The notes under the pieces: generated by a model
Databases searched by the model: none
Told to the model about the DNA's origin: nothing
Seen by the model: the letters and a program-made list of their open reading frames with translations, nothing else
Made by a program: the position numbers and the translations under genes
In this document: positions 281 through 35,594 of the stretch, in pieces
How the letters are laid out: each line of letters opens with the position of its first letter
How positions within the stretch are numbered: the stretch's first letter is position 1
Source: a virus
Virus record (IMG/VR): IMGVR_UViG_3300024262_000117
Span: 1-35,594 of that record
DNA length: 35,594 nt
Reading direction: 5' to 3' (one strand)

Positions 281-571
281 ATGGAATACCAACCTCTTAA
301 TGAAAATGTAATTGCAAGACTAATGGAACCAGAAGAAAAGAGTAAGGGCGGAATCGTACTATCTTCTTATACCAAAACTGGCAAACCTAAGGCCACCATT
401 CTATCTGTTGGTCCAGGTAGGATTCTAAACAATGGGACTTGTATCCCTGTTACTCTTAAACCTGGAGATGTTGTTGTTATAAATGAAAACTCTTTTCAAG
501 TAATTGAAGATGACATTGTTACGTTTACAGAAAATGATATTTTAGCTCTAATTCAAGATAGTTTTAGTTAG
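281..571 (+). CDS. groES: GroES-like co-chaperonin
   Basis: This 96-residue protein matches the GroES/Cpn10 family over its full usual length. The mobile loop that docks on GroEL is recognisable as EEKSKGGIVLS near residues 17-27. It is followed by the barrel motif ATILSVGPGRILNNG, then KPGDVVV, and the family ending TENDILALI. A strong AAGGAG site lies just before the ATG. GroES proteins cap the GroEL chamber in the cytoplasm. Phage versions (T4 gp31 is the functional precedent) usually adapt the host chaperonin for folding a virion protein. No GroEL is in the window, so use of the host GroEL is inferred. The stop is nine bases before the leader copy of the TilS-like gene. Confidence 0.9.
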   Translation: MEYQPLNENVIARLMEPEEKSKGGIVLSSYTKTGKPKATILSVGPGRILNNGTCIPVTLKPGDVVVINENSFQVIEDDIVTFTENDILALIQDSFS

Positions 572-578
572 GAATAAT

Positions 579-643
579 AGATGTTTAAGTTGCTTTGTAA
601 AATTCCAGATAAGTTTTATGTGGCATGTTCAGGGGGCCGAGAT
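579..643 (+). repeat. direct repeat, upstream copy (65 bp) of the tilS 5' end
   Basis: This segment is identical to 1398-1462. It carries the first 63 bases (21 codons, ending in the Asp codon of SGGRD) of the TilS-like gene plus two bases before the ATG. Identity stops exactly where the inserted HNH gene begins. The native ribosome-binding site (AGGA at 571-574 region) remains only with this upstream copy. Confidence 0.95.
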
Positions 644-649
644 AAATGA
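581..649 (+). pseudogene. truncated tilS 5' fragment, now a 22-codon leader ORF
   Basis: The reading frame gives MFKLLCKIPDKFYVACSGGR, then Asp-Lys and a stop. The first 21 residues equal the N-terminus of the TilS-like protein at 1400. The frame breaks directly after the PP-loop Asp because the HNH gene is inserted there. Its TGA (647-649) overlaps the ATG of the HNH gene (646-648) as ATGA, the arrangement that permits translational coupling. I infer that ribosomes loading at the original tilS ribosome-binding site now drive endonuclease translation. It cannot encode an active enzyme. Confidence 0.85.
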
Positions 650-1407
650 ATTATAAATTAAAAATGTTATATGGTAATAATATAACCAGTCATCCTGGAT
701 ACAAAGTTTGGCAAAAAATAAAATACAAATGCCACAATCCTAATCATAATATGTTTCACAATTATGGAGCAAAAGGAGTAACGCTCTCTAAAATTTGGCA
801 CAACTCTAAAGAATTTTTAAAGTGGTATGAAGAAAATTACTTAAAAGATGGAATAATTATAAGAATAGATGAGTCTAAGGGTTATAGTCCAGATAACTGT
901 AAATTTATAATTAAGTCGAATAGAGCAATAAGGCATAGAGGATTAAAATTTAAACTAATAAAAGAATTCGAACCATTGACTAGTCACCCGTGTTATTCTG
1001 TTTTACAAAGCATGAAGGCAAGGTGTTACAATAAATCTAAGAGCGACTACTATAGATATGGCGAAAGAGGTATCTATATTTGTAAAGAATGGCTTAAAGA
1101 TTCTGCTAAATTCCTGCTTTGGTGTGAGAATAATGGTTTTAAAAAAGGACTAACAATAGACAGAATTAATAATGATGGCCCATATTGTCCAGATAATTGT
1201 AGATTTACAGACCGAAAAACACAGGCGAACAATAGAAGAGGAGCTATTTTTAAAAATGCCAAGGGAGTCTATTTTGATAAAAATAGAGAAAAATGGTCAG
1301 CAGAATTGAAAGTGAATGGCAAAAGATATCGGTTAGGTAGATTTGATACTAAAAAAGACGCAATTAAAGCAAGAAAAAAAGCAGAAAGTAAGTATAGAGA
1401 TGTTTAA
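646..1407 (+). CDS. HNH homing endonuclease with duplicated HNH-like unit and AP2-like domain
   Basis: This 253-residue protein has two similar units. Unit one (about 14-100) contains TSHPGYKVWQKIKYKC and GYSPDNCKF. Unit two (about 112-198) contains TSHPCYSVLQSMKARC and LTIDRINNDG followed by CPDNCRF and QANNRR. The second matches the phage HNH endonuclease pattern best (IDRINNDG..sPdNCRf). The first is altered at that core (IRIDESKG) and may only bind DNA. The C-terminus (about 205-250, GVYFDKNREKWSAEL and LGRFDTKKDAIKA) is an AP2-like DNA-binding domain common in such nucleases. The gene lies between two 65-bp copies of the tilS 5' end, its start overlaps the leader stop, and its stop overlaps the rebuilt tilS start. 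No group I intron core was recognised. Role as a freestanding homing nuclease is inferred from family and position. Confidence 0.85.
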   Translation: MNYKLKMLYGNNITSHPGYKVWQKIKYKCHNPNHNMFHNYGAKGVTLSKIWHNSKEFLKWYEENYLKDGIIIRIDESKGYSPDNCKFIIKSNRAIRHRGLKFKLIKEFEPLTSHPCYSVLQSMKARCYNKSKSDYYRYGERGIYICKEWLKDSAKFLLWCENNGFKKGLTIDRINNDGPYCPDNCRFTDRKTQANNRRGAIFKNAKGVYFDKNREKWSAELKVNGKRYRLGRFDTKKDAIKARKKAESKYRDV

Positions 1408-1462
1408 GTTGCTTTGTAAAATTCCAGATAAGTTTTATGTGGCATGTTCAGGGGGCCGAGAT
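1398..1462 (+). repeat. direct repeat, downstream copy (65 bp) that rebuilds tilS
   Basis: This copy is identical to 579-643. It supplies codons 1-21 to the intact TilS-like reading frame. The last bases of the HNH gene (GATGTTTAA) are read from its beginning, so HNH stop and tilS start overlap. Recombination between the two copies would remove the HNH gene precisely. Confidence 0.95.
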
Positions 1463-2002
1463 TCTTGTGTTGTCCTAAATTTCCTTTCTAGTCATAAAGG
1501 TTTTAGTGGGATTATCCATTGCCACCACGGAACTAAGCATTCTGATGATGCATTGAATTTTGTTAAAAGTATTGGTGTAAAAAACAATTGGGGAACTATT
1601 AGTAAATTCGAATTTCTTAAAGAAGGAAAGCCAGAAGACCAGAGTCAAGAAGAACATTGGTCGAATTGGCGAAGAGAAGTATTTAACTCGCTACCCCATC
1701 CAGTTATTACAGGGCATAAAATTCAGGATGCAAAAGAATGGTGGATTATGTCTTCTTTGCATGGAGAAGGAAAGCTTATTCCGGTGGAATCTGGCAACGT
1801 TCTAAGGCCATTCCTAGCGACTAGTAACAAAGAAATTGAAGACTGGGCTGAGCGCAAGATGGTAAAATGGATTGAAGATCCTAGTAACCAGTCACGAAAA
1901 TATGCTAGAAATATTGTTAGATATGATATTATGGAACATGCAGAGAAAATTAATCCTGGGCTAAGTAAGACAATTAGAAAAAAATATCTAAATGCTCAGT
2001 AA
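1400..2002 (+). CDS. tilS: TilS-like tRNA(Ile)-lysidine synthase (PP-loop ATPase)
   Basis: This 200-residue protein has the N-type PP-loop SGGRDS (residues 17-22), an HHG motif near 42-44, an EEHWSNWRREVF helix equivalent to the TilS EAxARxxRY region, a HxxxDxxE motif (GHKIQDAKEWW), RPFL, WIEDPSNQ and RNIVR. In that order these are characteristic of TilS, which attaches lysine to C34 of tRNA-Ile(CAU) so that it reads AUA. It has only the catalytic domain, as do short TilS forms. The ATG at 1400 is chosen because the 5' repeat at 581 begins at the same codon after a proper ribosome-binding site. Upstream of 1400 the site is weak, so coupling to the overlapping HNH gene is likely. It could modify a phage-encoded tRNA outside the window. 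Confidence 0.8.
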   Translation: MFKLLCKIPDKFYVACSGGRDSCVVLNFLSSHKGFSGIIHCHHGTKHSDDALNFVKSIGVKNNWGTISKFEFLKEGKPEDQSQEEHWSNWRREVFNSLPHPVITGHKIQDAKEWWIMSSLHGEGKLIPVESGNVLRPFLATSNKEIEDWAERKMVKWIEDPSNQSRKYARNIVRYDIMEHAEKINPGLSKTIRKKYLNAQ

Positions 2003-14065: not shown

Positions 14066-14404
14066 ATGAGTGACGACGCAAGCTGGAACTTCCCAGAACA
14101 CTCCAATTGGTGCGACGAGTGCGATGAAGATACGTTCCACGCCACGTGCCCCGATTGCCGTGATAAGCAAGAGGCAGATGCAGTGGCCAAGCGCACGCGC
14201 GAGATCAGGGACGCGATCGTCAGAGAAAGCGATCGGGTCTTCAAGACGGGAGACACGGTGAAGCAAGACCAAAACAACTTCTACACCGGCGCTCTCTGGG
14301 GGATCCGCCTCTGCCTGGACTACTTCAACGACGGCGCGAAGTTCGAAGTAAAGGAGGTTATAACTGCTTATGAAAATCCAACAAAATCAAAAGAAATCGG
14401 TTAA
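14066..14404 (+). CDS. zinc-ribbon protein in GC-rich segment, C-terminus replaced
   Basis: AGGAGGATAAAAG precedes the ATG. The protein begins MSDDASWNFPEHSNWC and has CDEC and CPDC pairs, a short zinc ribbon, then a helical charged region and NNFYTGALWGIRLCLDYF. GC content is about 60-65% over 14161-14220 and 14281-14340 by direct count, versus 27% in a typical phage stretch such as 7381-7440, indicating foreign origin. The GC-rich sequence ends at 14352, exactly where a 60-bp block repeated at 15395 begins. The last 17 or so residues are therefore encoded by the repeat and probably are not native to this protein. Function unknown. Confidence 0.6.
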   Translation: MSDDASWNFPEHSNWCDECDEDTFHATCPDCRDKQEADAVAKRTREIRDAIVRESDRVFKTGDTVKQDQNNFYTGALWGIRLCLDYFNDGAKFEVKEVITAYENPTKSKEIG

Positions 14405-14412
14405 AATCACTT
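14353..14412 (+). repeat. 60-bp direct repeat heading methyltransferase module A
   Basis: Identical to 15395-15454, starting GGAGGTTATAACTGCTTATG. It contains a strong ribosome-binding site and the start of a short leader ORF. It marks the left edge of module A and a sharp drop in GC content. Confidence 0.92.
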
Positions 14413-14420
14413 ACTTTTAG
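14370..14420 (+). CDS. possible leader peptide, 16 aa (module A)
   Basis: An ATG 11 bases after AAGGAGGT opens MKIQQNQKKSVKITYF. It ends just before the -10 element at 14433. The same start exists at 15412 in module B, where the frame runs 28 residues. Conservation of the ribosome-binding site in both copies hints at real translation, but the overlap with the 14066 gene leaves it uncertain. Confidence 0.3.
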   Translation: MKIQQNQKKSVKITYF

Positions 14421-14438
14421 CCAAAAATGTAGTATAAT
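14411..14438 (+). promoter_or_regulatory. candidate promoter of module A
   Basis: TTACTT (14411-14416), a 16-base spacer and TATAAT (14433-14438). The -35 is a weak match. It sits 14 bases before the small ORF of the methyltransferase module and has a counterpart at 15453. Confidence 0.5.
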
Positions 14439-14451
14439 ATAGGAGTAAAAG

Positions 14452-14610
14452 ATGAAAGTAATCAAAGTTACAACAGAGTATTACGAAACAGAGGACGAGA
14501 AGGTTTACTTCTTCGAGCCTTTGGAGAAAGAAATATCCGTTGAGGATATGCAGAAGATTGTTAATGTAAACGAGAAATTAGTTAAGGAGTTGAAAGATGC
14601 TAAAGATTGA
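14452..14610 (+). CDS. small acidic protein, 52 aa, upstream partner of methyltransferase A
   Basis: TAGGAGTAAAAG precedes the ATG. The product, beginning MKVIKVTTEYYETEDEKVYF, has a beta-type start and a charged helix (EISVEDMQKIVNVNEKLVKE). Its end overlaps the start of methyltransferase A by 14 bases. A second copy before methyltransferase B carries a nonsense codon. No family was recognised. It may regulate or stabilise the methyltransferase, or be a simple translational lead-in. Confidence 0.65.
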   Translation: MKVIKVTTEYYETEDEKVYFFEPLEKEISVEDMQKIVNVNEKLVKELKDAKD

Positions 14611-15316
14611 ACTGATACAGGGCGATTGCTTGGAGAAGATGAGGGATATTCCCGATGGGAGTATAGATATGGTTTTAACAGACCCACCGTATGGAACGAC
14701 TCAATGCAAGTGGGATAGTGTTATTCCGTTTGAGCCGATGTGGGAGCAGTTGAAGCGGGTTATTAAGCCTAATGGGGCTATTGTGTTGACATCGCAATCC
14801 CTTTTTACCGCTAAAGTAATGACAACATCTCCTTACTTCCGCTATTGCTTGATTTGGGAGAAGACTAAGGCAGGCGGGTTTTTGAACGCAAACAGAATGC
14901 CGTTGCAGGCTCATGAGGACATAACCGTTCACTATAAAAAACTCCCAACCTACAACCCGCAAAAAGAAAATGGAAAGCCTTATGTTAAAAAGGCTGTGAC
15001 AAACGGTGATGGCGGGAATTATGGGAAGTTTGATCGGGTGGGCACAACGAACGAAAACAAAGGTGAAAGGTTTCCAAGAAGTGTCATAAAAATATCGAAC
15101 GATAATCACGGAAGCCTTCACAACACCCAAAAACCCGTAGCCCTAATGGAATACCTAATCAAAACATACACAAATGAAGGCGAAACCGTACTAGATTTTA
15201 CAATGGGAAGTGGAACGACTGGAGTCGCCTGCAAAAACCTGAACCGAAACTTCATTGGCATAGAACTTGACTCTGAATATTTCAAAATTGCGGAGAAGCG
15301 AATAAAAGAAATGTAG
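14597..15316 (+). CDS. DNA methyltransferase A, beta-class (N6-adenine or N4-cytosine)
   Basis: The 239-residue enzyme has the catalytic TDPPYGT (Asp29-Tyr32) near the N-terminus and the S-adenosylmethionine site DFTMGSGTTGVA near the C-terminus. This IV-before-I order defines the beta class. The central part (about 65-165) should hold the target-recognition region. Ends are nearly identical to methyltransferase B at 15643, while the centre is unrelated. No restriction nuclease is adjacent, so it probably protects phage DNA or alters its methylation. The ATG overlaps the small acidic protein gene. Confidence 0.88.
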   Translation: MLKIELIQGDCLEKMRDIPDGSIDMVLTDPPYGTTQCKWDSVIPFEPMWEQLKRVIKPNGAIVLTSQSLFTAKVMTTSPYFRYCLIWEKTKAGGFLNANRMPLQAHEDITVHYKKLPTYNPQKENGKPYVKKAVTNGDGGNYGKFDRVGTTNENKGERFPRSVIKISNDNHGSLHNTQKPVALMEYLIKTYTNEGETVLDFTMGSGTTGVACKNLNRNFIGIELDSEYFKIAEKRIKEM

Positions 15317-15333
15317 GATTTGCAACATAATGC

Positions 15334-15362
15334 TTGACTCGGGTCTAACTCTGTGATATAAT
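15334..15362 (+). promoter_or_regulatory. sigma70-type promoter ahead of module B
   Basis: TTGACT (15334-15339), a 17-base spacer and TATAAT (15357-15362). It lies in the 75-base gap between methyltransferase A and the repeated block of module B. No equivalent precedes module A, where the GC-rich segment begins instead. Confidence 0.75.
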
Positions 15363-15394
15363 CCAATTTAGAAAGAACGGTGGGTTTTACTTAC

Positions 15395-15454
15395 GGAGGT
15401 TATAACTGCTTATGAAAATCCAACAAAATCAAAAGAAATCGGTTAAAATCACTT
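15395..15454 (+). repeat. 60-bp direct repeat heading methyltransferase module B
   Basis: Identical to 14353-14412. Similarity continues, with substitutions, through the small ORF and the first third of the methyltransferase gene. Confidence 0.92.
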
Positions 15455-15498
15455 GCTTTTTAACCAGAAATGTAGTATATTTAAGGAGTGAAATATGA
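15412..15498 (+). CDS. possible leader peptide, 28 aa (module B)
   Basis: The frame starts MKIQQNQKKSVKIT as in module A and runs on to a TGA at 15496-15498 that overlaps the ATG of the degenerate small ORF. GGAGGT lies 11 bases upstream. Real translation is unproven. Confidence 0.3.
   Translation: MKIQQNQKKSVKITCFLTRNVVYLRSEI
15453..15481 (+). promoter_or_regulatory. candidate promoter of module B
   Basis: TTGCTT (15453-15458), a 17-base spacer and TATATT (15476-15481), at the position matching the module A promoter. The -10 element is weaker than in module A. Confidence 0.4.
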
Positions 15499-15656
15499 AA
15501 GTCATAAAGGTAACGAAATAGTATTTTCAGACAGAGGACGAGAAGGTTTATTTCTTCGAGCCTTTGGAAAAAGAAATATCCGTTGAGGATATGCAGAAGA
15601 TTGTGGACGCAAACGAAAAATTAGTTAAGGAGATGAAAGACAATGCCAAAGATTGA
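15495..15656 (+). pseudogene. small ORF copy with nonsense codon (module B)
   Basis: This is the second copy of the 52-aa gene. After MKVIKVTK a TAG replaces the GAG of copy A, and the frame then continues intact (YFQTEDEKVYFFEPLEKEIS) to a TGA at 15654-15656. The rest is well conserved, so the mutation seems recent, or the gene survives by restarting. Its loss shows that the small protein of module A is either sufficient or dispensable. Confidence 0.75.
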
Positions 15657-16395
15657 ACTGATACAGGGCGATTGCCTTGAACTAATGAAAGACATATCTG
15701 ATAAAAGTATTGATGCTATTATTACAGACCCACCCTACGGAACTACAGCGTGTAAATGGGATTCAGTAATACCTTTCGAACCTATGTGGGAACAATTAAA
15801 GCGTGTGATTAAACCTAATGGTGCGATTGTTTTATTTGGATCAGAACCATTTAGTAGTGCTTTAAGAATGTCAAATATTAAAAATTATAAATATGATTGG
15901 GTTTGGGAAAAAACAAATCCTGCAAATATAGCAATGGCAAAAAGAATGCCTTTAAAATATCACGAAATAATAAGCGTTTTTTATAATACTCAGCCAACAT
16001 ACAATAGGCAAATGATACCACGAGATGCATTAGGCCAAAAGAGATTAGAGAATAAAAATAATCCAATTAGGTTTAGCGGTTCAGACATACAAGGAAATAA
16101 AACCAAAAAGAAAAATTATGATATAAATAGATATGCCGTAAAGGTTAAAAATCCCAGCAGCGTGTTAAAAATAAAAGTAGAACGAGGCAAACTACACCCA
16201 ACCCAAAAGCCCGTTGCCCTAATGGAATACCTAATCCAGACATACACCAACGAAGGAGAAACGGTGCTTGACTTCACAATGGGAAGCGGAACAACGGGTG
16301 TTGCTTGTAAGAAACTTAACCGCAATTTCATAGGAATAGAATTTGACTCTGAATATTTCAAAATTGCAGAGAAGCGAATAAATGAAAATCTATAA
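15643..16395 (+). CDS. DNA methyltransferase B, beta-class, with different central region
   Basis: The 250-residue enzyme has TDPPYGT (Asp29-Tyr32) and DFTMGSGTTGVA, as in methyltransferase A. The first 60 or so residues and the last 75 are nearly the same as in A. Residues about 68-175 differ strongly (NYKYDWVWEKTNPANIAMAK, RDALGQKRLENK) and should recognise a different DNA target. The reaction is methyl transfer from S-adenosylmethionine to adenine N6 or cytosine N4; I cannot tell which. Its stop codon lies within the upstream copy of a 16-bp repeat that flanks the downstream homing endonuclease. Confidence 0.88.
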   Translation: MPKIELIQGDCLELMKDISDKSIDAIITDPPYGTTACKWDSVIPFEPMWEQLKRVIKPNGAIVLFGSEPFSSALRMSNIKNYKYDWVWEKTNPANIAMAKRMPLKYHEIISVFYNTQPTYNRQMIPRDALGQKRLENKNNPIRFSGSDIQGNKTKKKNYDINRYAVKVKNPSSVLKIKVERGKLHPTQKPVALMEYLIQTYTNEGETVLDFTMGSGTTGVACKKLNRNFIGIEFDSEYFKIAEKRINENL

Positions 16396-16420
16396 AATCA
16401 CAGGTGATTGTAGTGGCTAA
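16382..16420 (+). pseudogene. 5' fragment of the MerR-like gene, now a 12-codon leader
   Basis: The frame reads MKIYKITGDCSG and stops. The portion IYKIT is shared with the MerR-like protein at 16996 (RIYKITEASKYLG). The DNA ATCTATAAAATCACAG occurs here (16388-16403) and again at 17008-17023. Its TAA (16418-16420) overlaps the beginning of the endonuclease gene. I read it as the original start of the MerR-like gene, cut off by insertion of the endonuclease gene. Confidence 0.6.
16388..16403 (+). repeat. 16-bp direct repeat, upstream of homing endonuclease
   Basis: ATCTATAAAATCACAG, identical to 17008-17023. The two copies bracket the NUMOD3 endonuclease gene and correspond to the first codons of the MerR-like gene. 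Confidence 0.85.
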
Positions 16421-17003
16421 AACAATATCAGAAGCACAAAGAAAAAAGATAAGCGAATCTATGAAAGGTCGCAAACTATCAGAAGAACATAAGGCAAAAC
16501 TTCGTGAATCTATGAAGGGTGTGAATACTTGGACAAAAGGTAGTAAAGCAAGTGAAGAAACAAAAGCAAAGTTAAGCAAAATACGCAAGGGCAAAAAACG
16601 TAAGCCATTCTCTGATGAGACAAGAGAAAAAATGAGACAAGCTAAACTTCAAAACCCAACTAACTATTGGAAAGACAAGAAAAGACCACCGCACACAGAG
16701 GAAACAAAAGCAAAAATGAGAGAAGCCGCTTTTGAATATGCAAAGAAGGTGTGTGATATTATTTGTCCAAGAATAGGCAGAAATGAGAAGTCCATTTTAG
16801 ATGCGGTTGAGATTGAAATGGGAGTTGAGATTTTAAGGCAATATAAATGTCTTGGGTATTTTATAGATGGGTATATTCCAGAAATGAAAATTGCAATAGA
16901 AGTTGACGAAAAACCCAAAATATCACAAAAAGATATTGAACGGGAGTCTATTCTTACTGAAAAACTTGGTTGCAGATTTATCAGGATTAAAGACTATGAC
17001 TAA
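16413..17003 (+). CDS. homing endonuclease: NUMOD3 repeats plus Vsr/DUF559-like nuclease domain
   Basis: I prefer the GTG at 16413 (AGGTGATT upstream) over the GTG at 16404. The N-terminal 110 residues carry several NUMOD3-type DNA-binding repeats (SEAQRKKISESMKG, SEEHKAKLRESMKG, SEETKAKLSKIRKG, TEETKAKMREA). The C-terminal domain has RNEKSILDAVE, YKCLGYFIDGYIPEMKIAIE and VDEKPKISQKDIERE, ending LGCRFIRIKD. This resembles the Vsr-related EDxHD homing nucleases, of which I-Bth0305I is the described example. The gene sits between 16-bp repeats in the 5' end of the MerR-like gene. Its last codons overlap the new start of that gene. Freestanding homing function is inferred from family and position. 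Confidence 0.75.
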   Translation: MAKTISEAQRKKISESMKGRKLSEEHKAKLRESMKGVNTWTKGSKASEETKAKLSKIRKGKKRKPFSDETREKMRQAKLQNPTNYWKDKKRPPHTEETKAKMREAAFEYAKKVCDIICPRIGRNEKSILDAVEIEMGVEILRQYKCLGYFIDGYIPEMKIAIEVDEKPKISQKDIERESILTEKLGCRFIRIKDYD

Positions 17004-17208
17004 TCGCATCTATAAAATCACAGAAGCAAGCAAATATCTTGGAGTGTCAATCAACACTCTCAAGACGCTTGCCAATAACGGAAAGATAAAATCTTTCAAG
17101 ACCACTGGTAAACATAGGCGTTTCCGTCAAGATGATTTAGATGCTTACATGGGAGTTGAGAAAGAGAAGCAAGAAAAGTTGACGATTATATATGATATGC
17201 AACAATGA
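16996..17208 (+). CDS. MerR/excisionase-type HTH protein, probable truncated IS607 TnpA
   Basis: The ATG at 16996 overlaps the end of the endonuclease gene. The 70-residue product has a MerR-like helix-turn-helix (ITEASKYLGVSINTLKTLAN, then GKIKSFKTTGKHRRFRQDDL). The following KLTIIYDMQQ and stop match the linker and first strand (tIIYARVS) of IS607-family serine recombinases up to IIY, after which the sequence diverges and ends. I therefore read it as the DNA-binding head of an IS607 TnpA whose catalytic domain was deleted. It might still work as a small regulator. A stand-alone excisionase-family protein is the alternative. Confidence 0.6.
   Translation: MTNRIYKITEASKYLGVSINTLKTLANNGKIKSFKTTGKHRRFRQDDLDAYMGVEKEKQEKLTIIYDMQQ
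17008..17023 (+). repeat. 16-bp direct repeat, inside MerR-like gene
   Basis: ATCTATAAAATCACAG, identical to 16388-16403. Here it encodes IYKIT of the rebuilt MerR-like protein. Confidence 0.85.
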
Positions 17209-17917: not shown

Positions 17918-18120
17918 TGAATAACAAAAAAACATGGGTTCTCTATGGAGTTGGAGAAGGCAAGGTTGAACTATATACCGACCTTAAGGTTGCTGAAAAG
18001 ATCATAGCTGAAAAGCATGGTATAACTAATAAAGTAGAAAAGGGGCCGGGTGTATGGCAGTTTGGGGCTAGTCTAATTCTTAAAAGACAAGAGCTATTTG
18101 GCTCCAACGGACTGGGCTAA
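17917..18120 (+). CDS. hypothetical protein, 67 aa
   Basis: The ATG overlaps the preceding stop and its own stop overlaps the PurA start by one base. The protein is a small alpha/beta type (TWVLYGVGEGKVELYTDLKV, AEKIIAEKHG) without Cys. No family was recognised. Its coupling to purA suggests co-expression only. Confidence 0.55.
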   Translation: MNNKKTWVLYGVGEGKVELYTDLKVAEKIIAEKHGITNKVEKGPGVWQFGASLILKRQELFGSNGLG

Positions 18121-19367
18121 TGAAACAAAAAGTAACTTGCTTAGTCGGCCTACAGTACGGAGATGAAGGTAAAGGCTCCATAAGTCAATATCTAGCAGGT
18201 AGTTATGATGTTTTCGTCAGATATCAAGGCGGCGGAAACGCTGGTCATACTATCTATAAAGACGGTCATAAGATTGTCACTCATTTCCTTCCAGTTGGAA
18301 TCATAGAAGAAGGTGGCACGGTCATTCTAGGCAATGGTATGGTTATAAATCCCTCGGGTCTAATCAATGAGATTAAAGAAGTCGCCGACGCACTAGGGGA
18401 GACGTTCATAAGTGTATCAGAAAGAGTTTTTATATCAAATAAGGCTCACGTCATAACCAAAGAGCTAGTTAAAAAAGATGCCAAGCGCGAGAAGACACAA
18501 AAGATAGGTACAACAAAAACTGGTGTTGGTCCAGCGTATGAATCTAAGTTTAATAGAACCGGCATCACAGTAGACGACATACTGTCTTCTCCTGACTACG
18601 AAGAATTTCAAAGGAAATTAGGTAGCCAAGTTGTAAGTACAGAGATAATGCTAAATCAAGCATATGTCGATGGTAAAAATATATTTTTTGAAGGTGCCCA
18701 AGGTACCATGTTAGACATAGACTTTGGACAATATCCGTTTGTAACTTCCTCAAATTGCCTACCTTCTGCCATTGGACACGGTGCCGGGTTTAGTCCAAGA
18801 AAAATAACCAACAATATAGGAGTTATAAAACCTTACTCTACAAGAGTTGGAGCTGGTCCCTTTCCCACAGAAATGAGAGCGGAGGAGGACGAACTATTTA
18901 GATCTAAAGGAGTGGAGTTTGGTGCTACTACTGGTCGTCCTAGAAAGTGTGGATGGCTAGATATACCCTCTCTTAGATATGCTATTCAAATTGCTGACAT
19001 TGACGAATTAGCCATTTCAAAGCTGGACATAATTGAGGGCATTGGAACTATACCTGTTTGTGTTGGATATAAAATAGACGACTTTGAACTAGATGGGGTG
19101 TCTGACTTCCCAAGTAAACTGGAGTGGTCAAAGGTCAAACCCATTTATGAAAATTGGCCTATTAATAGGTTTGTAGAATTATTACAGGATCACGCTGGAA
19201 TTCCTGTAAAGATAACTAGCTATGGACCAAACATAGAAGACAAGATATTTATGGATAAATATTCTACGCAAACTATTGAAATTCTGAGATCTATGAGAAA
19301 ATTTGGAAAAGCAATGCAAGAGAGTCTAATTAAGCCGAAACAAACTACATCGAAGGGAACAGGGTAA
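18120..19367 (+). CDS. purA: adenylosuccinate synthetase (PurA family)
   Basis: The 415-residue protein covers the full PurA fold. Visible motifs are the P-loop-like GDEGKG with catalytic Asp15, GGNAGHT with His43, KIGTTKTGVGPAYE, FEGAQGTMLDID, PYSTRVGAGPFPTE and ATTGRPRKCGWLD. PurA joins IMP and aspartate with GTP to make adenylosuccinate. In the phage paralogue PurZ, which acts on dGMP for 2-aminoadenine DNA, the catalytic Asp is reported replaced by Ser; here Asp is kept and the length is PurA-like. So a PurA role is favoured. A short polar tail (KPKQTTSKGTG) is extra. A MazG-like gene follows 0.7 kb downstream. Confidence 0.88.
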   Translation: MKQKVTCLVGLQYGDEGKGSISQYLAGSYDVFVRYQGGGNAGHTIYKDGHKIVTHFLPVGIIEEGGTVILGNGMVINPSGLINEIKEVADALGETFISVSERVFISNKAHVITKELVKKDAKREKTQKIGTTKTGVGPAYESKFNRTGITVDDILSSPDYEEFQRKLGSQVVSTEIMLNQAYVDGKNIFFEGAQGTMLDIDFGQYPFVTSSNCLPSAIGHGAGFSPRKITNNIGVIKPYSTRVGAGPFPTEMRAEEDELFRSKGVEFGATTGRPRKCGWLDIPSLRYAIQIADIDELAISKLDIIEGIGTIPVCVGYKIDDFELDGVSDFPSKLEWSKVKPIYENWPINRFVELLQDHAGIPVKITSYGPNIEDKIFMDKYSTQTIEILRSMRKFGKAMQESLIKPKQTTSKGTG

Positions 19368-24649: not shown

Positions 24650-25100
24650 CATTCAACAAGAAATGGTTAACTTCTGCACAACAATGGGGCTTACTCAGTT
24701 TAAAGGAAAGGTATCTATTGATCTACCTAGTCTTATAAATGATCTGGACGCTGGTCTCAATGGAAGGACTACCGAAGAAATAGAATACTTGATGACAAAG
24801 ATTCATGCCTTTAATTTGGATCTTAAGAATAAAAAGAGCAGCCTTAAAGCTTTCATCACCATAAAAGAGCAGCAGGTTAATAAATATGTATCAGAAAATC
24901 TACATCAGGTAACAGACATGTACACCCCATTTGAGTTCAAGAAAGAATTAATAATATCTAAGAGTGTAACGGTATCACAGGCGTATAAAGATTTATTGAG
25001 GTCTAAGTCTCAGTTAGAAAAAATTGGAGACATACCTTTCAGTATAGATAAAGTAATAGCTTCTATGGAAGCATATATGAGAAGAAGGTATTCCCAGTGA
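24642..25100 (+). CDS. hypothetical protein, 152 aa
   Basis: The protein is mostly helical, rich in Lys and Glu (DLKNKKSSLKAFITIKEQQV), with no Cys motif, signal or membrane helix. It ends basic (YMRRRYSQ). The ATG overlaps the nuclease gene and its stop overlaps the GTG start of the DnaB gene. A helicase-loading or recombination-mediator role can be suspected from position only. Confidence 0.6.
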   Translation: MNDIQQEMVNFCTTMGLTQFKGKVSIDLPSLINDLDAGLNGRTTEEIEYLMTKIHAFNLDLKNKKSSLKAFITIKEQQVNKYVSENLHQVTDMYTPFEFKKELIISKSVTVSQAYKDLLRSKSQLEKIGDIPFSIDKVIASMEAYMRRRYSQ

Positions 25101-27841
25101 GTGAAATTTCAAAAAAGTCAGAGTTTAACCTGCTATCCTATTTAGTTAAGAATCCGAATTATATTTTTGATATAGATGGTGTAAACATTGAAGATTCTGA
25201 TTTTTCAACTAACGTACTAAGAAACATATATAGATGTATAAAACACATTAGTGCGGAAAACTCTTCAATAAAAGAAGACGTACCGATTGATCCAATCATA
25301 GCAGAAGAATATATTGCTAAGACGTGGAAAAACGACTATGAAAGAAACGCCGATAAATATTCAGACACCATAGATAGGCTTATAAAAAACAATTCATTTG
25401 ACTCAAGGTCATTGGGAAAGTATGTAAGTATAATAGTTTCAGAGTCTTATAGAAGTAAGATAAAGAAAGAACTTGGGCAACTAGGAAACTCTCTAGACGA
25501 TATGCACAATGCTCCAGAGATGATCGAAACAGTGGAGAAGAATGTATACGACTTTACATCCAGTCTTTTCGTTGGAAATGATCTAATACACATTGGCTCA
25601 GAGTACGAAGCTTTTATTCAAAATGTAGCAGAGAGAGCTATTCAAGGCGAAATAGACACAGGTATCAGTACGGGGTTTGATGTATTCGACGAAGCTGTTG
25701 GAGGTGGCCTCAGAAGAGGTACGATTAGTGTTATAGCTGCTCGCCCAAAGCGGCATAAATGTGTTAACTCTTATGAAACAATGATTTACACCTCTAAAGG
25801 TATTCTTTATCCATATGAAATGCATGATGTTGTAAATGATCAAAAAGTTGATGAAATAGACTATAAGCTTATCTCCGAGAACGGAACATGGAGAAAGCCA
25901 GCATATTGGTGGAATAATGGAATTGATAAAACTAAAAAAATAACCACTAAATTTGGCTATGAAATAGAGGCCACCCACGAACACCCTATCAGGTGTATAG
26001 ACGAGGGTGGAAACATTGTTTGGAAGAATTGCGGAGATATAAGAGAGACTGATGTTTTAGTAATGATCCGAGGAAATGGAATCTTTAACACTTCTAAGGA
26101 TTTAAACGAAGACGCTTACGTCCTAGGATTACTGTGTGGAGATGGTCATATTAGAGATGAATCAACTAGTCTTACTACTATGGACGAATGCTGCGCTAAA
26201 GCATTTTCTGAGTCCTGCTCATCTAAAGGCTTCATAGTTGGTCAATATACAAAGAAGGACAATAAGGCCAGCTCATATGTAGTATGTGATAAAAAGAGCA
26301 AGGTATTAATAGATAAAGAGGATCTATATGATTCTGATAATAAAAAAATAATGCCGCTATCTATTAGGACTGGAAGCAAGAGGTCTATGTGTATGTTCAT
26401 TAGAGGACTATTTGATGCAGATGGAGGATTTTCTGACAAGGTGCATTGGACTACTAATAGCAGTAGGCTTCATAGAGAAGTTAAAACCATACTTCTAGCA
26501 CTGGGGATTGTTAGCTCTAGTCATATTATGAACGTAGTTCCACCTGGGCATACTGAATCCAGGGAGTATTATCAGCTATCTATTAGATCTGTTAATTCAA
26601 TGATGCTGTTTAAAAATATTATAGGGTTCGGTTTACCAAGGAAAATGAGCTTACTTAATGATCATATAGAGAAAACTACATCTAGTGAAAAAGTAGATGT
26701 CATACTAAACGCTAGTGTTCCCCTTAATGATCTTAAAAACAAAATAATCGAATTAAGAGGGTTCGCGTTCAATGGTCACAAGAATACATTAAGAGATAGT
26801 GTAAATAGGGTTATTAGGCTAGAGAGGGGACTCCAGAGAGAATTTCTTAATAAGGTTCTGGAGGAATGGTCAGAATTCAGTCACTTGAACGAGTACAGAA
26901 GTCTAAAGAACCTAGCGTCTGAAGACATTCTGTACCAAACAATAAAGTCTATAGAAGACGGAGAGTGTTTGACTTGTGATTATTACATTGACTCAGATGA
27001 TCATAGTTTTGTCGCCAATGGATTTATTAATCATAATTCTTTCCTAGCACTTACTATAGCTAACAATGTTTCTACTAATGGAGTCCCTGTTCTTTATCTT
27101 GACACCGAGCTTTCAGAAGAATTACAGATGTCTCGCCTTACTTCAATAGAAACCGGCGTACCTCTTCATTATATTGAAACAGGGAAATTCGTTGGCCATC
27201 AGGGTTACAGCGAAAAGATTAAGAAAATGTCTGAAGACGTAAAAGATAGACCATTTGACTATGTTCAGATAGCGGGTTGGTCTATTGAGAAACAAGTATC
27301 AATCATAAGACGTTGGTTTGCTAAAAGAGTTGGCAAAGACGACTCTGGCCGATGGAACAATGCTCTAGTAATACTAGACTACCTAAAGCTAATGAACGCT
27401 AAAGATAAAAATGGAGACAAAGAATATGAGGCTCTGGGTTTTAGAATATCTCAACTACACGATCTAATGAGAGACTACGACAATCCGATGCTTGCACTGG
27501 CTCAGCAGAATAGATCAGGGGTAGAAGTAGAAGACTCGACAACTATCTCTGGCTCAGACAGAATTATCTGGCTGTGTGATAATTTCAGCATACTATCGAA
27601 GAAGTCTGATGCAGAGCTTAGACAGATCGCAGAGCATCTTAAAGAAACTCCAGAGTACGAAGATCAATTTTCAAATATGAAACTGAATGTAGTTGAGTGT
27701 CGTCATGGTCCAGGTTGCCAAAATGGTGAATTCATAGGTCTTTATTGCGACTTCAAAGATTTCAGGAAGGATTCTAAAGAATGCAATGGAAAACTAAGAG
27801 AAGTGGGGCTGGAAAGGCCAATGTCGGATGAACATCAATAA
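25097..27841 (+). CDS. dnaB: DnaB-type replicative helicase interrupted by an intein
   Basis: The GTG start overlaps the preceding stop. The 914-residue precursor has an N-terminal helical domain (1-160), a RecA-like core starting STGFDVFDEAVGGGLRRGTI, and an intein at residues 222-647. After splicing the helicase would be 488 residues with the P-loop ARPKRHKS, Walker B NALVILDYLKLM, and LALAQQNRSG and TISGSDRIIWL motifs of DnaB. The P-loop lacks both usual glycines (GxxxxGKS becomes AxxxxHKS), which is odd. The helicase unwinds DNA at the fork and pairs with the primase encoded next. The two genes overlap by 14 bases. Confidence 0.9.
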   Translation: MSEISKKSEFNLLSYLVKNPNYIFDIDGVNIEDSDFSTNVLRNIYRCIKHISAENSSIKEDVPIDPIIAEEYIAKTWKNDYERNADKYSDTIDRLIKNNSFDSRSLGKYVSIIVSESYRSKIKKELGQLGNSLDDMHNAPEMIETVEKNVYDFTSSLFVGNDLIHIGSEYEAFIQNVAERAIQGEIDTGISTGFDVFDEAVGGGLRRGTISVIAARPKRHKCVNSYETMIYTSKGILYPYEMHDVVNDQKVDEIDYKLISENGTWRKPAYWWNNGIDKTKKITTKFGYEIEATHEHPIRCIDEGGNIVWKNCGDIRETDVLVMIRGNGIFNTSKDLNEDAYVLGLLCGDGHIRDESTSLTTMDECCAKAFSESCSSKGFIVGQYTKKDNKASSYVVCDKKSKVLIDKEDLYDSDNKKIMPLSIRTGSKRSMCMFIRGLFDADGGFSDKVHWTTNSSRLHREVKTILLALGIVSSSHIMNVVPPGHTESREYYQLSIRSVNSMMLFKNIIGFGLPRKMSLLNDHIEKTTSSEKVDVILNASVPLNDLKNKIIELRGFAFNGHKNTLRDSVNRVIRLERGLQREFLNKVLEEWSEFSHLNEYRSLKNLASEDILYQTIKSIEDGECLTCDYYIDSDDHSFVANGFINHNSFLALTIANNVSTNGVPVLYLDTELSEELQMSRLTSIETGVPLHYIETGKFVGHQGYSEKIKKMSEDVKDRPFDYVQIAGWSIEKQVSIIRRWFAKRVGKDDSGRWNNALVILDYLKLMNAKDKNGDKEYEALGFRISQLHDLMRDYDNPMLALAQQNRSGVEVEDSTTISGSDRIIWLCDNFSILSKKSDAELRQIAEHLKETPEYEDQFSNMKLNVVECRHGPGCQNGEFIGLYCDFKDFRKDSKECNGKLREVGLERPMSDEHQ
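25760..27037 (+). mobile_element. intein with LAGLIDADG endonuclease in DnaB
   Basis: The 426-residue insert begins with Cys (CVNSYETMIYTSKGILYPYE), has block B ATHEHPIRC, and ends FVANGFINHN followed by Ser as the +1 residue. Thus all splicing residues (Cys1, block B His, penultimate His, Asn, +1 Ser) are present. Two LAGLIDADG-type motifs lie inside: YVLGLLCGDGHI (about precursor residue 342) and MFIRGLFDADGGF (about 433). The insertion splits the P-loop between Lys and Ser, a well-known intein site. It is a full-size, apparently active homing intein. Confidence 0.93.
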
Positions 27842-31806: not shown

Positions 31807-31893
31807 ATGAAAATCGGAATATCACAGACTATGGTTGGATTGATAAAAAGAAAAGAAGTATGGAAAGAAGCACTAAATGAAGCCAATGAGTAG
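31807..31893 (+). CDS. short ORF, 28 aa, doubtful
   Basis: The frame reads MKIGISQTMVGLIKRKEVWK and ends before the DnaE start region. A competing frame of 25 codons starts at 31803. Only one of these, or neither, is translated. They fill the gap before the polymerase gene, and overlap its start. Confidence 0.25.
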   Translation: MKIGISQTMVGLIKRKEVWKEALNEANE

Positions 31894-34800
31894 TAATTAC
31901 GTATCACTCCACTCACATTCTCACTACAGTCTCTTGGATTCTACGACAAAGATCGAGGATGCTGTAGCTAGAAGTAAAGAACTGGGCCACTCAGCCTATT
32001 CTCTTACAGATCATGGTGTAGTTGCTGGGCATATTAGGGCATATCTAGAGTGTCAAAAGCACGGTGTAAAGTTTATACCTGGAATTGAAGCATACTTTAC
32101 AGATGAGCATACGGACAAAGTTCGTAAGTCTAGGCATATAACTATCTTAGCTAAGAACAATAAGGGTCTTGAGAACCTATATAAAATGGTAACTTGGTCC
32201 AATGTTCCAGTTGACAAAGGTGGTGGGTTCTTTTATCGACCCCGTATCTCTTGGAAAGAGCTTGAGAAGTACAAAGAGGGTCTCATTATACTATCAGGAT
32301 GCATGAATTCTCCTTCTAACCACAACTTCGTCCATGAAGGATATGAGCAAGGCAAAGATGTAGTTAAGCGTCTTAAGAGTATCTTTGGATATGATAATCT
32401 ATTCATAGAACTACAAAATGTAAACGAACCTGGCAAGATTTTCATTCCTGAACAAGAGCTTATACTAAACAACTGTAGACAAGTTGCTCAAGAATTAGAT
32501 ATCAGATCTGTTGCAACTAACGATTGTTTTACTCCTGACACTCTAGTTAAGACTACCCGTGGAGAAGTTAGAATAGATAATGTCAAAATTGGGGACAAAG
32601 TATATTCTCACAACGGCAACATTAACAAGGTTGAGCATGTAAATGTAAGAGGTATTGATAGTGAAATATATGAAATAATTCCAAGTTTTGGAAGTAGAAC
32701 TATAAAGTGCTCCAAGAATCACCCCATATTGGTGTGTAGAGGTAATATTAAGGGAGAAACAAATAGAGACTATCTCAACTACGACTTCCAATGGATTAAG
32801 TCTTCAGACCTAAATGATAATGATTTGCTTTGCATTACCAAGCTGAACCCCAATGATGGGCCGAATTGCGGAAAAAGGGTCGTAAACATAAAATCTATAC
32901 TTGAAAGATCTAGATCATATAAGAAAAACCACCACGTATTTAACGATGGCATGATAACCAGTCCTAAAGTTGGAAAATTGGGTAAGAAAATATCCATACC
33001 AGAGAAGCTTGAAATTTGTGATGATTTATTAGCAATATTTGGGCTTTATTTGGCTGAAGGATACATAGATGGAAACAACCTTGGATTTGCATTTCATTCT
33101 AGTGAAGGATATCTGGTTGAAATTATAGACAACTACTTTAGAAAATTCAACTACTCTCCATGCATATCAAAAAAAGGTGAAAATGGCATTTGTATAAGGG
33201 TTACGTCGAGAATATTTACAGAAGTATTCAAGAAGCTATTCGGGAAAGGCGCAGAGAACAAGTGGATAAACGCTTCTGTTGACTCAAAAAATAACAATTG
33301 GTCAAACAATCAGTTGGCAATGATCCTAAAGTACTACTTTATTGGCGACGGCCATGTTGACAAAAAAAGAAACAAGATGTTGGTATCTACAGTGTCGGAG
33401 AGATTGGCGTGGGATGTCTCTAATTCCCTAAATAGGTTGGGAATTTGCTCTATTCCAGAATCTAGAGATGGAGCAAAATGTTCTAAAAATCACAAAAACG
33501 CAAAGTCAGATTGGAAAGACTCTTATCAAATAACCCTCTCTGGAGGCAACTTTGAAAAGGCTATAAAGCTCAATGTAATAGAAGACTTCAAAGAAAGAGA
33601 TAATTCAGTTGGTTCTAGATTCTTTGAAACTGATGAGTTCTTTTTAGTTAGAATTGAAAAAATAGACAAGATTAAATCAAAAGATAGGCTTTGGAACTTA
33701 CAGGTTTCTAGGGATGAGACTTATATAGCCAATGGGTTTGCTGTTCATAATTCCCACTATGTTTACAAAGAGGATTCTTTTCCTCATGAGGTTCTAAAGG
33801 CGATCGAAGCAAGAGCAACCCTAGACACTCCTATCGTGGATCACGCAAAGGGGATAACTAAAGGTAGACTCGTATTTAATGGCTTTGATTACTATGTAAG
33901 ATCAGAAGAAGAGATGCGAACAAAGTTCTCAGAGGACGAAGTTAACAACTCTAAACTTATTGCAGACATGGTTGATGTAACAATCAACATGGACATGAAG
34001 ATGCCCAAGTATAAGGGCATGTCTGATGAAGAGTGTCTTGAAGCTCTAAAAGCGGTTGCTCGAAATGGCTGGAAAGAGTTAAATATATCTGATAAGGAAA
34101 ACAAAGCCGACTATCTTGAAAGAATTCAACACGAAATAGGAGAGATAGAGGAAGCTAACCTACAACACTATTTCATGATTGTCTATGATGTTTGTAAGTT
34201 CTGTGACGACAATGGAATAATCCGTGGATATGGTAGAGGAAGTTGTGCTGGATCGTTGATTCTGTATCTACTAAAAATAACACGATTCGCTGACCCTGTT
34301 CAATATGGTCTTATCTGGGAGAGGTTTTACAACATCGGTCGCAAAGGATCGATGCCGGATATTGATCTCGATATTCAGATTGACCGAAGAGAAGAAGTTG
34401 TTGAATATCTCAAAGAAGAGTTCGGTAAAGATCGAGTTCTACCCATGATGACTATTTCAACTCTAACTGCCAAAGGTGTACTTAAAGATGTTGGCAAGGT
34501 CATGGGCCTTACTCATGAATACATGAATGCCCTAACAAAGCATGTCAAGAATAAGAATAAGGGTCTCCAAGATGCCATTGATTCTTCTGACTACCTAAGC
34601 AAAGTACAGTTTGGTGTTGACGAAGACGTAGAACAGTGGGAAGAAGAGATCTTAGCATCTGACGACGCTGTAGAGAAAAGATTCATTGGAGAGAAAGTCA
34701 ACGATAGAAAACGAAGACTTCTACAAACCTTTAAGGTTGCTCACAGATTAGAAGGTGTAAACCGAAACAGATCAACTCACGCTTGCGCCATACTTATCTC

Positions 34801-35594
34801 AGATGAAAGTGTCTTTGGTAAAATTCCGTGCGCGTGGGACGCCAATAAGAAAAACCTCTTAACGGGAATCGATATGTATGACGTTGAGAGACTAGGTTAT
34901 ATGAAGCTAGATGTGCTTGGTCTTAAAACCCTTTCAGTAGTATCTAGGACTATGCCCAACTTCTTAGATGAAATAACTTCATTCGACGACGAAGATGTAT
35001 TTGGATTAATAGCCAGGGGAGATAACAAGGGTGTGTTCCAGCTAGAGTCTAAACTGGGCCAAGTTTGGTCCAAGAGAGTTCGTCCTGAGAACATTGAAGA
35101 TCTCGCTGCCCTGATCTCAATCATTAGACCGGCGGTTCTAGAAACCGGGCTAGCTGATCAATATATAGAGAATAAAAGGCGCGGTACTTGGGATTGCATT
35201 CATGAGGATCTTGAGCCAATATTTAGAAACACCTTTGGAGTAATGCTCTATCAGGAGCAGATGCTTGAAGTTGTAAGGAAGTTCGGCAACTTCGACATGA
35301 AAGAGGCTGACAGCTTGAGAAAAGCTGTTGGTAAAAAGATACCTGAGCTTATGGCTACGTTTAAAGAGAGATTTATTGAAGGTTGTAACGCGCAGCACAA
35401 TAACCCGGTCCTAGCCGATGAGCTTTGGGGTTGGATTGAAAAAGGTGCCACGTATTCATTCAATAAATCTCACGCTCTAACATATGGAATGATGGCATAC
35501 ACTACGGCTTTCGCTAAGCTTAATCACCCCCTAGAGTTTTACTGTTCAATGCTTCAGCTTTCTGAGAATGAACAGAAGCCACAGGAAGAAATTG
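31877..35594 (+). CDS. dnaE: DNA polymerase III alpha subunit (DnaE type) with intein, 3' end outside window
   Basis: The frame is open from the ATG at 31877 to the window edge (1239 codons); an ATG at 31886 is an alternative. The N-terminal PHP domain shows YVSLHSHSHYSLLDS and LTDHGV. An intein fills residues 217-625. The polymerase core then has IIRGYGRGSCAGSLI, the catalytic MPDIDLDI Asp pair, HACAILIS, KLDVLGLKTLS with the third catalytic Asp, and FNKSHALTYGMMAYTTAFAK. It is the phage replicative polymerase and lies downstream of helicase and primase genes. About 830 extein residues are visible. The C-terminal part, including any beta-clamp-binding motif, is beyond the window. Confidence 0.92.
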   Translation, partial: MKPMSSNYVSLHSHSHYSLLDSTTKIEDAVARSKELGHSAYSLTDHGVVAGHIRAYLECQKHGVKFIPGIEAYFTDEHTDKVRKSRHITILAKNNKGLENLYKMVTWSNVPVDKGGGFFYRPRISWKELEKYKEGLIILSGCMNSPSNHNFVHEGYEQGKDVVKRLKSIFGYDNLFIELQNVNEPGKIFIPEQELILNNCRQVAQELDIRSVATNDCFTPDTLVKTTRGEVRIDNVKIGDKVYSHNGNINKVEHVNVRGIDSEIYEIIPSFGSRTIKCSKNHPILVCRGNIKGETNRDYLNYDFQWIKSSDLNDNDLLCITKLNPNDGPNCGKRVVNIKSILERSRSYKKNHHVFNDGMITSPKVGKLGKKISIPEKLEICDDLLAIFGLYLAEGYIDGNNLGFAFHSSEGYLVEIIDNYFRKFNYSPCISKKGENGICIRVTSRIFTEVFKKLFGKGAENKWINASVDSKNNNWSNNQLAMILKYYFIGDGHVDKKRNKMLVSTVSERLAWDVSNSLNRLGICSIPESRDGAKCSKNHKNAKSDWKDSYQITLSGGNFEKAIKLNVIEDFKERDNSVGSRFFETDEFFLVRIEKIDKIKSKDRLWNLQVSRDETYIANGFAVHNSHYVYKEDSFPHEVLKAIEARATLDTPIVDHAKGITKGRLVFNGFDYYVRSEEEMRTKFSEDEVNNSKLIADMVDVTINMDMKMPKYKGMSDEECLEALKAVARNGWKELNISDKENKADYLERIQHEIGEIEEANLQHYFMIVYDVCKFCDDNGIIRGYGRGSCAGSLILYLLKITRFADPVQYGLIWERFYNIGRKGSMPDIDLDIQIDRREEVVEYLKEEFGKDRVLPMMTISTLTAKGVLKDVGKVMGLTHEYMNALTKHVKNKNKGLQDAIDSSDYLSKVQFGVDEDVEQWEEEILASDDAVEKRFIGEKVNDRKRRLLQTFKVAHRLEGVNRNRSTHACAILISDESVFGKIPCAWDANKKNLLTGIDMYDVERLGYMKLDVLGLKTLSVVSRTMPNFLDEITSFDDEDVFGLIARGDNKGVFQLESKLGQVWSKRVRPENIEDLAALISIIRPAVLETGLADQYIENKRRGTWDCIHEDLEPIFRNTFGVMLYQEQMLEVVRKFGNFDMKEADSLRKAVGKKIPELMATFKERFIEGCNAQHNNPVLADELWGWIEKGATYSFNKSHALTYGMMAYTTAFAKLNHPLEFYCSMLQLSENEQKPQEEI
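32525..33751 (+). mobile_element. intein with LAGLIDADG endonuclease in DnaE
   Basis: The 409-residue insert starts CFTPDTLVKTTRGEVRIDNV, has block B KCSKNHPILVC and ends TYIANGFAVHN followed by Ser. Two LAGLIDADG-like motifs, LAIFGLYLAEGYID and LKYYFIGDGHVD, lie near precursor residues 386 and 485. It splits the PHP motif ATND/SHY. Splicing residues Cys1, His-Asn and +1 Ser are all present, so splicing should work. Confidence 0.93.

Follow-up and report, generated by a model that had tools for sequence, protein, structure and literature searches.

A stub-flanked HNH/AP2 endonuclease gene in front of a complete viral tilS-like gene, a possible scar of asymmetric homing

We analyzed a 35,594-nt stretch of viral DNA, hereafter called the window, in which an endonuclease gene lies between two copies of the beginning of another gene (Table 1). 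The copies form an exact direct repeat of 65 bp, 100% identical and with no further similarity in its flanks, and each consists of AG followed by codons 1-21 of a tilS-like open reading frame (ORF). A chance origin cannot apply to such a repeat. The initial annotation had placed both repeat copies and the HNH/AP2 gene that they bracket correctly, and it was also borne out in two further points: the break falls directly after the Asp codon of SGG-R-D/S, the PP-loop codons of the tilS-like gene, and the upstream copy has become a short leader ORF whose TGA (647-649) overlaps the HNH ATG (646-648) as ATGA. At the other end, the HNH stop codon had been described as overlapping the tilS ATG; the two genes do share 8 nt, beginning with the tilS ATG at 1400, but the TAA (1405-1407), which sits within the second repeat copy, does not itself touch that ATG.

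Table 1 Positions of the features at the two endonuclease loci of the window
Feature	Position	Strand	Remarks
groES-like co-chaperonin gene	281..571	+	Pfam Cpn10 1e-15, PHROG_3188; upstream, without tilS overlap
First repeat copy (tilS stub, codons 1-21)	579..643	+	22-codon leader MFKLLCKIPDKFYVACSGGRDK, ORF 581-649
AGGGGG Shine-Dalgarno-like site for HNH ATG	631..636	+	encoded by the stub's SGG codons; anti-SD duplex -9.4 kcal/mol
HNH/AP2 endonuclease ORF (putative), 253 aa	646..1407	+	degenerate first HNH-like repeat, intact second, C-terminal AP2 domain
Second repeat copy (rebuilt tilS start, codons 1-21)	1398..1462	+	100% identical to 579-643
tilS-like gene for a PP-loop ATPase, complete; 200 aa, limited to the TilS N-domain	1400..2002	+	PF01171, TilS_N and 1ni5 matches
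Stub of IS607-like tnpA start (ATG AAA ATC TAT AAA ATC ACA)	16382..16403	+	shares sequence with the end of the preceding methyltransferase gene
NUMOD3 + MTES_1575-like nuclease ORF	16404..17003	+	Pfam NUMOD3 3e-14; 88% identical to L246 nuclease
Rebuilt, truncated IS607-like tnpA HTH, MTNRIYKITEASKYLGVS...	16996..17208	+	HTH_17 1e-13; start overlapped 8 nt by the nuclease ORF

The gene behind the endonuclease, a tRNA-modification-like one, encodes a full PP-loop protein corresponding to the N-domain of TilS (PF01171, 1e-22; TilS_N domain, 2e-24, slightly under the model cut-off; E. coli TilS 1ni5, 8e-10), in line with the earlier claim that the target protein stays complete. When it was aligned with 83 full-length viral or phage relatives, SGG-x-D-S was invariant and the start Met was the same in all 84 proteins, showing that the rebuilt tilS is complete and that the upstream copy is a fragment. 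The insertion site had been called the most conserved one of the gene; S17, G18, G19, D21 and S22 are indeed invariant, but the octamer SGGRDSCV ranks second, not first, in the 84 aligned proteins. A search for uninterrupted groES-tilS junctions had been suggested. Neither a stub nor a nuclease is present at tilS in any of the 83 relatives (0/83); a close empty-site relative of this virus was not found with tilS alone, the exact 42-nt pattern or the DUF2201 neighbour as queries.

The product of 646-1407 is a putative free-standing HNH/AP2 homing endonuclease. It matches PHROG_374 with an E-value of 2e-66 (PHROG_374/3377 matches range from 1e-55 to 1e-66) and Pfam AP2 with 1e-6, which is under the curated cut-off of that model, and the HNH core D-R-I..Y.PDNCR is present in its second repeat. 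An AF2 model of the protein is confident at residues 110-253, and the nearest solved structures are AP2 DNA-binding domains, with weak E-values. The N-terminal third of the protein (646-955) repeats the HNH region in decayed form, which is unusual among its relatives; single-domain relatives, for example the one at L001, align to residues 15-98 and also to residues 113-221. In another record (L142, G047), a 102-kb virus contig, 9 matches to the HNH family were reported.

The initial annotation supposed that the endonuclease had taken over the native ribosome-binding site of tilS, which did not hold. The native region is kept at the start of the stub (anti-SD energy, -4.2 kcal/mol) and drives the stub, whereas the HNH ATG is preceded by the AGGGGG that comes from the SGG codons, a site equalled in strength by 0.9% of random 19-mers from the window. 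The rebuilt tilS ATG has hardly any anti-SD pairing (-1.8 kcal/mol), so that tilS is probably translated by re-initiation from the HNH gene across the 8-nt overlap. A ribosomal hop from the stub to tilS was set aside, since tilS is there in full and 819 nt would have to be bridged.

The stub layout is not confined to tilS. In the same window, a NUMOD3 nuclease gene is flanked by a 16-bp exact repeat, ATCTATAAAATCACAG, at 16388 and 17008; ATGAAAATCTATAAAATCACAG stands before the nuclease, over the end of the methyltransferase gene, and ATGACTAATCGC-ATCTATAAAATCACAG, with which an IS607-like transposase HTH begins, stands after it. A further locus, L246, has the same layout with an 88% identical nuclease and a different upstream gene, and its tnpA homologue matches the IS607 transposase with 2e-28, under the model cut-off.

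Two virus contigs show the layout at terminase genes that differ from each other. In L109, the stub MFKETTATIKIKGL is followed by an HNH/AP2 gene and then by a complete terminase large subunit (MFRETTATRKIKAL...GGTSASKT); in L344, the stub MLYLKPKQKKVVEL and an HNH/AP2 gene precede the complete terminase MLSLKKKQVRAVEL...GSGKT. The stub and the complete copy have diverged in both, and in L109 they differ at 14 of 42 nt, seven codons being changed synonymously and three not, as expected if two alleles were joined that would each once have been a terminase start. Both stubs overlap the end of a small-terminase-like gene, selection on which could explain their persistence. The tilS stub, unlike these, is a plain remnant, because there is no overlap with groES (571 versus 581). 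In L120, a large terminase gene, whose product shares 59% identity with that of L109, is immediately preceded by an HNH/AP2 gene that overlaps it by 11 nt, and a stub is absent; in Flavobacterium phage Fpv5 the small and large terminase genes adjoin without a nuclease, which is likewise missing in L371. Three states are thus seen at the terminase gene: no nuclease (Fpv5, L371), a nuclease without a stub (L120), and a stub with a nuclease (L109).

In L267-L269, a GIY-YIG/NUMOD3 ORF within a tRNA cluster is preceded by a sequence resembling the 5' half of a tRNA and followed by a complete tRNA-Met (L268 2460-3480); 1 of 2000 shuffles was as good as this half, and we regard the tRNA instance as less secure. 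At the 3' end of a gene, what seems to be the mirror image of the layout occurs in L209 and L288 and, more weakly, in L234.

The loci were gathered by a repeat scan around HNH genes in comparison with control ORFs. Flanking DNA repeats around the HNH loci showed no clear enrichment over the controls, and unanchored protein tests, including a local C-terminal one, did not separate the two; only the start-anchored test did, with a stub score of at least 35 in 3/288 homing endonuclease gene (HEG) ORFs and 0/1719 control ORFs, at a cut-off that was set after the scores had been seen. At a cut-off of 30, three HEG ORFs stood against four controls (p 0.07), and those controls were short or low-complexity matches. 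An anchored 3'-end test gave p 0.006, with several of the matches short or of low complexity, and tandem paralogues also commonly show 3'-end duplications. The stub layout is rare in this nuclease family, and with such modest statistics the argument depends on how each locus is built.

We suggest, with a probability of about 0.5, that the tilS locus is the scar of asymmetric homing by a free-standing HNH/AP2 endonuclease. The donor would have carried the nuclease gene directly before a complete tilS, the 3' end of the nuclease gene overlapping the tilS start, and the nuclease would have cut a nuclease-free tilS allele at the boundary of codons 21 and 22. Repair of the right-hand end would then have used the donor as template and introduced the nuclease gene and the whole of tilS, and the left-hand end, not having been resected to shared sequence, would have been joined to the start of the nuclease gene instead, so that the first 65 bp of the recipient's tilS persisted as the stub. 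Such a course would account for where the stub ends, for the completeness of the rebuilt gene, for the identity of the copies at tilS and their divergence at the terminases, and for the mirror images, and the terminase series fits an L120-type donor with asymmetric repair. The same geometry occurs with unrelated nucleases, namely NUMOD3 at IS607 (window, L246) and GIY-YIG at tRNA-Met (L267-L269). Free-standing HEGs of phages are known to cleave at a distance from where they themselves are inserted and to require resection into the shared flanks (PMC2988022).

The identity of the tilS copies, which may mean that a recent event has been caught, also means that this case alone cannot separate homing from a simple duplication at insertion, and the searches for relatives brought up neither an HNH-tilS donor without a stub nor an empty allele of the same virus lineage. 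The GAT/TCT junction is a candidate homing target, not a proven one. Since the two copies do not differ, the HNH-bearing allele still holds each native stretch of 65 bp or less, and the repeat alone therefore gives no protection against self-cleavage; such protection would have to come from differences to the right of the cut or from an inactive enzyme, or else be absent.

Two rivals to asymmetric homing are live. The element might have carried its own rescue segment, like a mORF-type home-and-rescue unit, the inserted front-end copy completing the native downstream gene at the cut site. The final layout matches that of the mitochondrial mORF hybrids, in which a carried foreign gene end restores the gene (PMC3630166), and the diverged copies of L109 and L344 agree with a foreign rescue segment. 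The L120 nuclease, however, lies before a whole terminase without any stub, so that the donor may simply be a nuclease plus a gene, and we consider a carried rescue segment unlikely. Rather unlikely, too, is a long target-site duplication: on insertion of the HNH gene, two nicks on opposite strands with a spacing of about 65 nt would have been filled in, or the template would have switched between sister genomes. To our knowledge, no paired-nick mechanism with a spacing of ~65 nt is established for HEGs. A duplication of this type would give the 100% identity of the tilS copies over 65 bp, and nicking is described for some HNH homing enzymes, such as I-PfoP3I (PMC3428280), but the copy lengths differ between the loci (65, about 42 and 16 bp) and the terminase copies differ from each other, many of the changes being synonymous.

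The source is a metagenome-derived virus record and the exact repeat is shorter than usual k-mers or reads, as would suit a collapsed or joined assembly graph or a mixture of strains; such an artefact is nevertheless highly improbable, because both junctions (repeat-HNH and HNH-repeat) must occur in real molecules for the assembly path and because similar loci exist whose diverged copies cannot collapse. Introns are a frequent home of HNH genes, but a group I or group II intron, or an intein, removed from the transcript or the protein can be dismissed almost entirely, as it had been at the outset: neither the window nor six similar loci matched Rfam; the HNH ORF spans nearly the whole insert and leaves no space for a ribozyme; the group I U/G end pair cannot be satisfied at any cut within the identical repeat, because the last base of the upstream exon and the last base of the intron are there the same; the HNH frame differs from that of the stub, which carries a stop codon; and Pfam found no Hint/intein domain in the HNH ORF, though it detects them in DnaB and Pol III of the window. 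These latter genes, for a DnaB-like helicase (25097-27841) and a DNA polymerase III alpha (31877-35593), both have inteins bearing LAGLIDADG domains.

No described class with this layout was known to the initial annotation, a statement that has to be qualified in that fungal mitochondrial mORF gene hybrids (PMC3630166) and phage ShiLan (PMC11855218) come near; it stands for the 5'-end stub/rebuilt version in phage genes, which we did not find in the openly licensed literature, with ShiLan as the sole near match, although this is not proof of novelty. The nearest class is that of the mORF hybrids, followed by ShiLan and then by the free-standing HEGs of T4. Like the tilS locus, the mORF hybrids, described in Allomyces atp6 and in Glomus atp6, atp9, cox2 and nad3, have a free endonuclease ORF in a gene and a duplicated gene end that restores the reading frame, with one completing copy, one remnant and no need of an intron; it is the C-terminus that is duplicated in them, mostly with LAGLIDADG or GIY-YIG enzymes and in mitochondria (PMC3630166), whereas at tilS the 5' end is rebuilt behind an HNH/AP2 nuclease in a bacterial virus, with overlapping start and stop codons and with identical copies (diverged in L109 and L344). 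In ShiLan, an out-of-frame HNH gene, for which neither an intron nor an intein was found, lies in a phage DNA methylase gene, and residues 1-11 of the insert are similar to the 11 residues that directly follow the insertion site; unlike at tilS, the host frame is open through the insert, the host protein is predicted to keep the whole insert, and no gene is rebuilt (PMC11855218). The T4 free-standing HEGs are the seg and mob genes, including mobE in Aeh1 nrdA and mobA in gene 60, and share with the tilS locus intronless homing, translational overlaps with neighbours and cleavage off the insertion site, but they are either intergenic without a stub or split a gene in two, and leave no rebuilt copy (PMC2988022).

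The tilS locus illustrates a route by which an endonuclease gene can enter a conserved coding motif with neither intron nor intein and leave the target gene whole, and in a bacterial virus it parallels both the gene hybrids of mitochondria and the home-and-rescue gene drives made by engineering (PMC7968924). Provided that the end of the stub marks the cut site, genomes would show directly where phage homing endonucleases cleave. As a tentative generalization, phage homing endonucleases of several families might repeatedly spread as units that preserve the gene, leaving a stub of the one invaded and supplying its missing end (5', 3' or tRNA half); they would be natural analogues of the engineered drives, and the stub boundary would record the cut site.

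The window also contains a cassette (GGAGGTTATAACTGCTTATGAAAATCC..., a small ORF and an N6/N4 methyltransferase gene) that is tandemly duplicated at 14353-16395 with a spacing of ~1.04 kb. A similar cassette start lies near 1470 in L246, so that the cassette may represent an IS607-like mobile element whose cargo can be exchanged. An adenylosuccinate synthetase-like gene is located at 18120-19367 of the window (PurA models, 1e-115; PurZ, 9e-39; both under cut-off).
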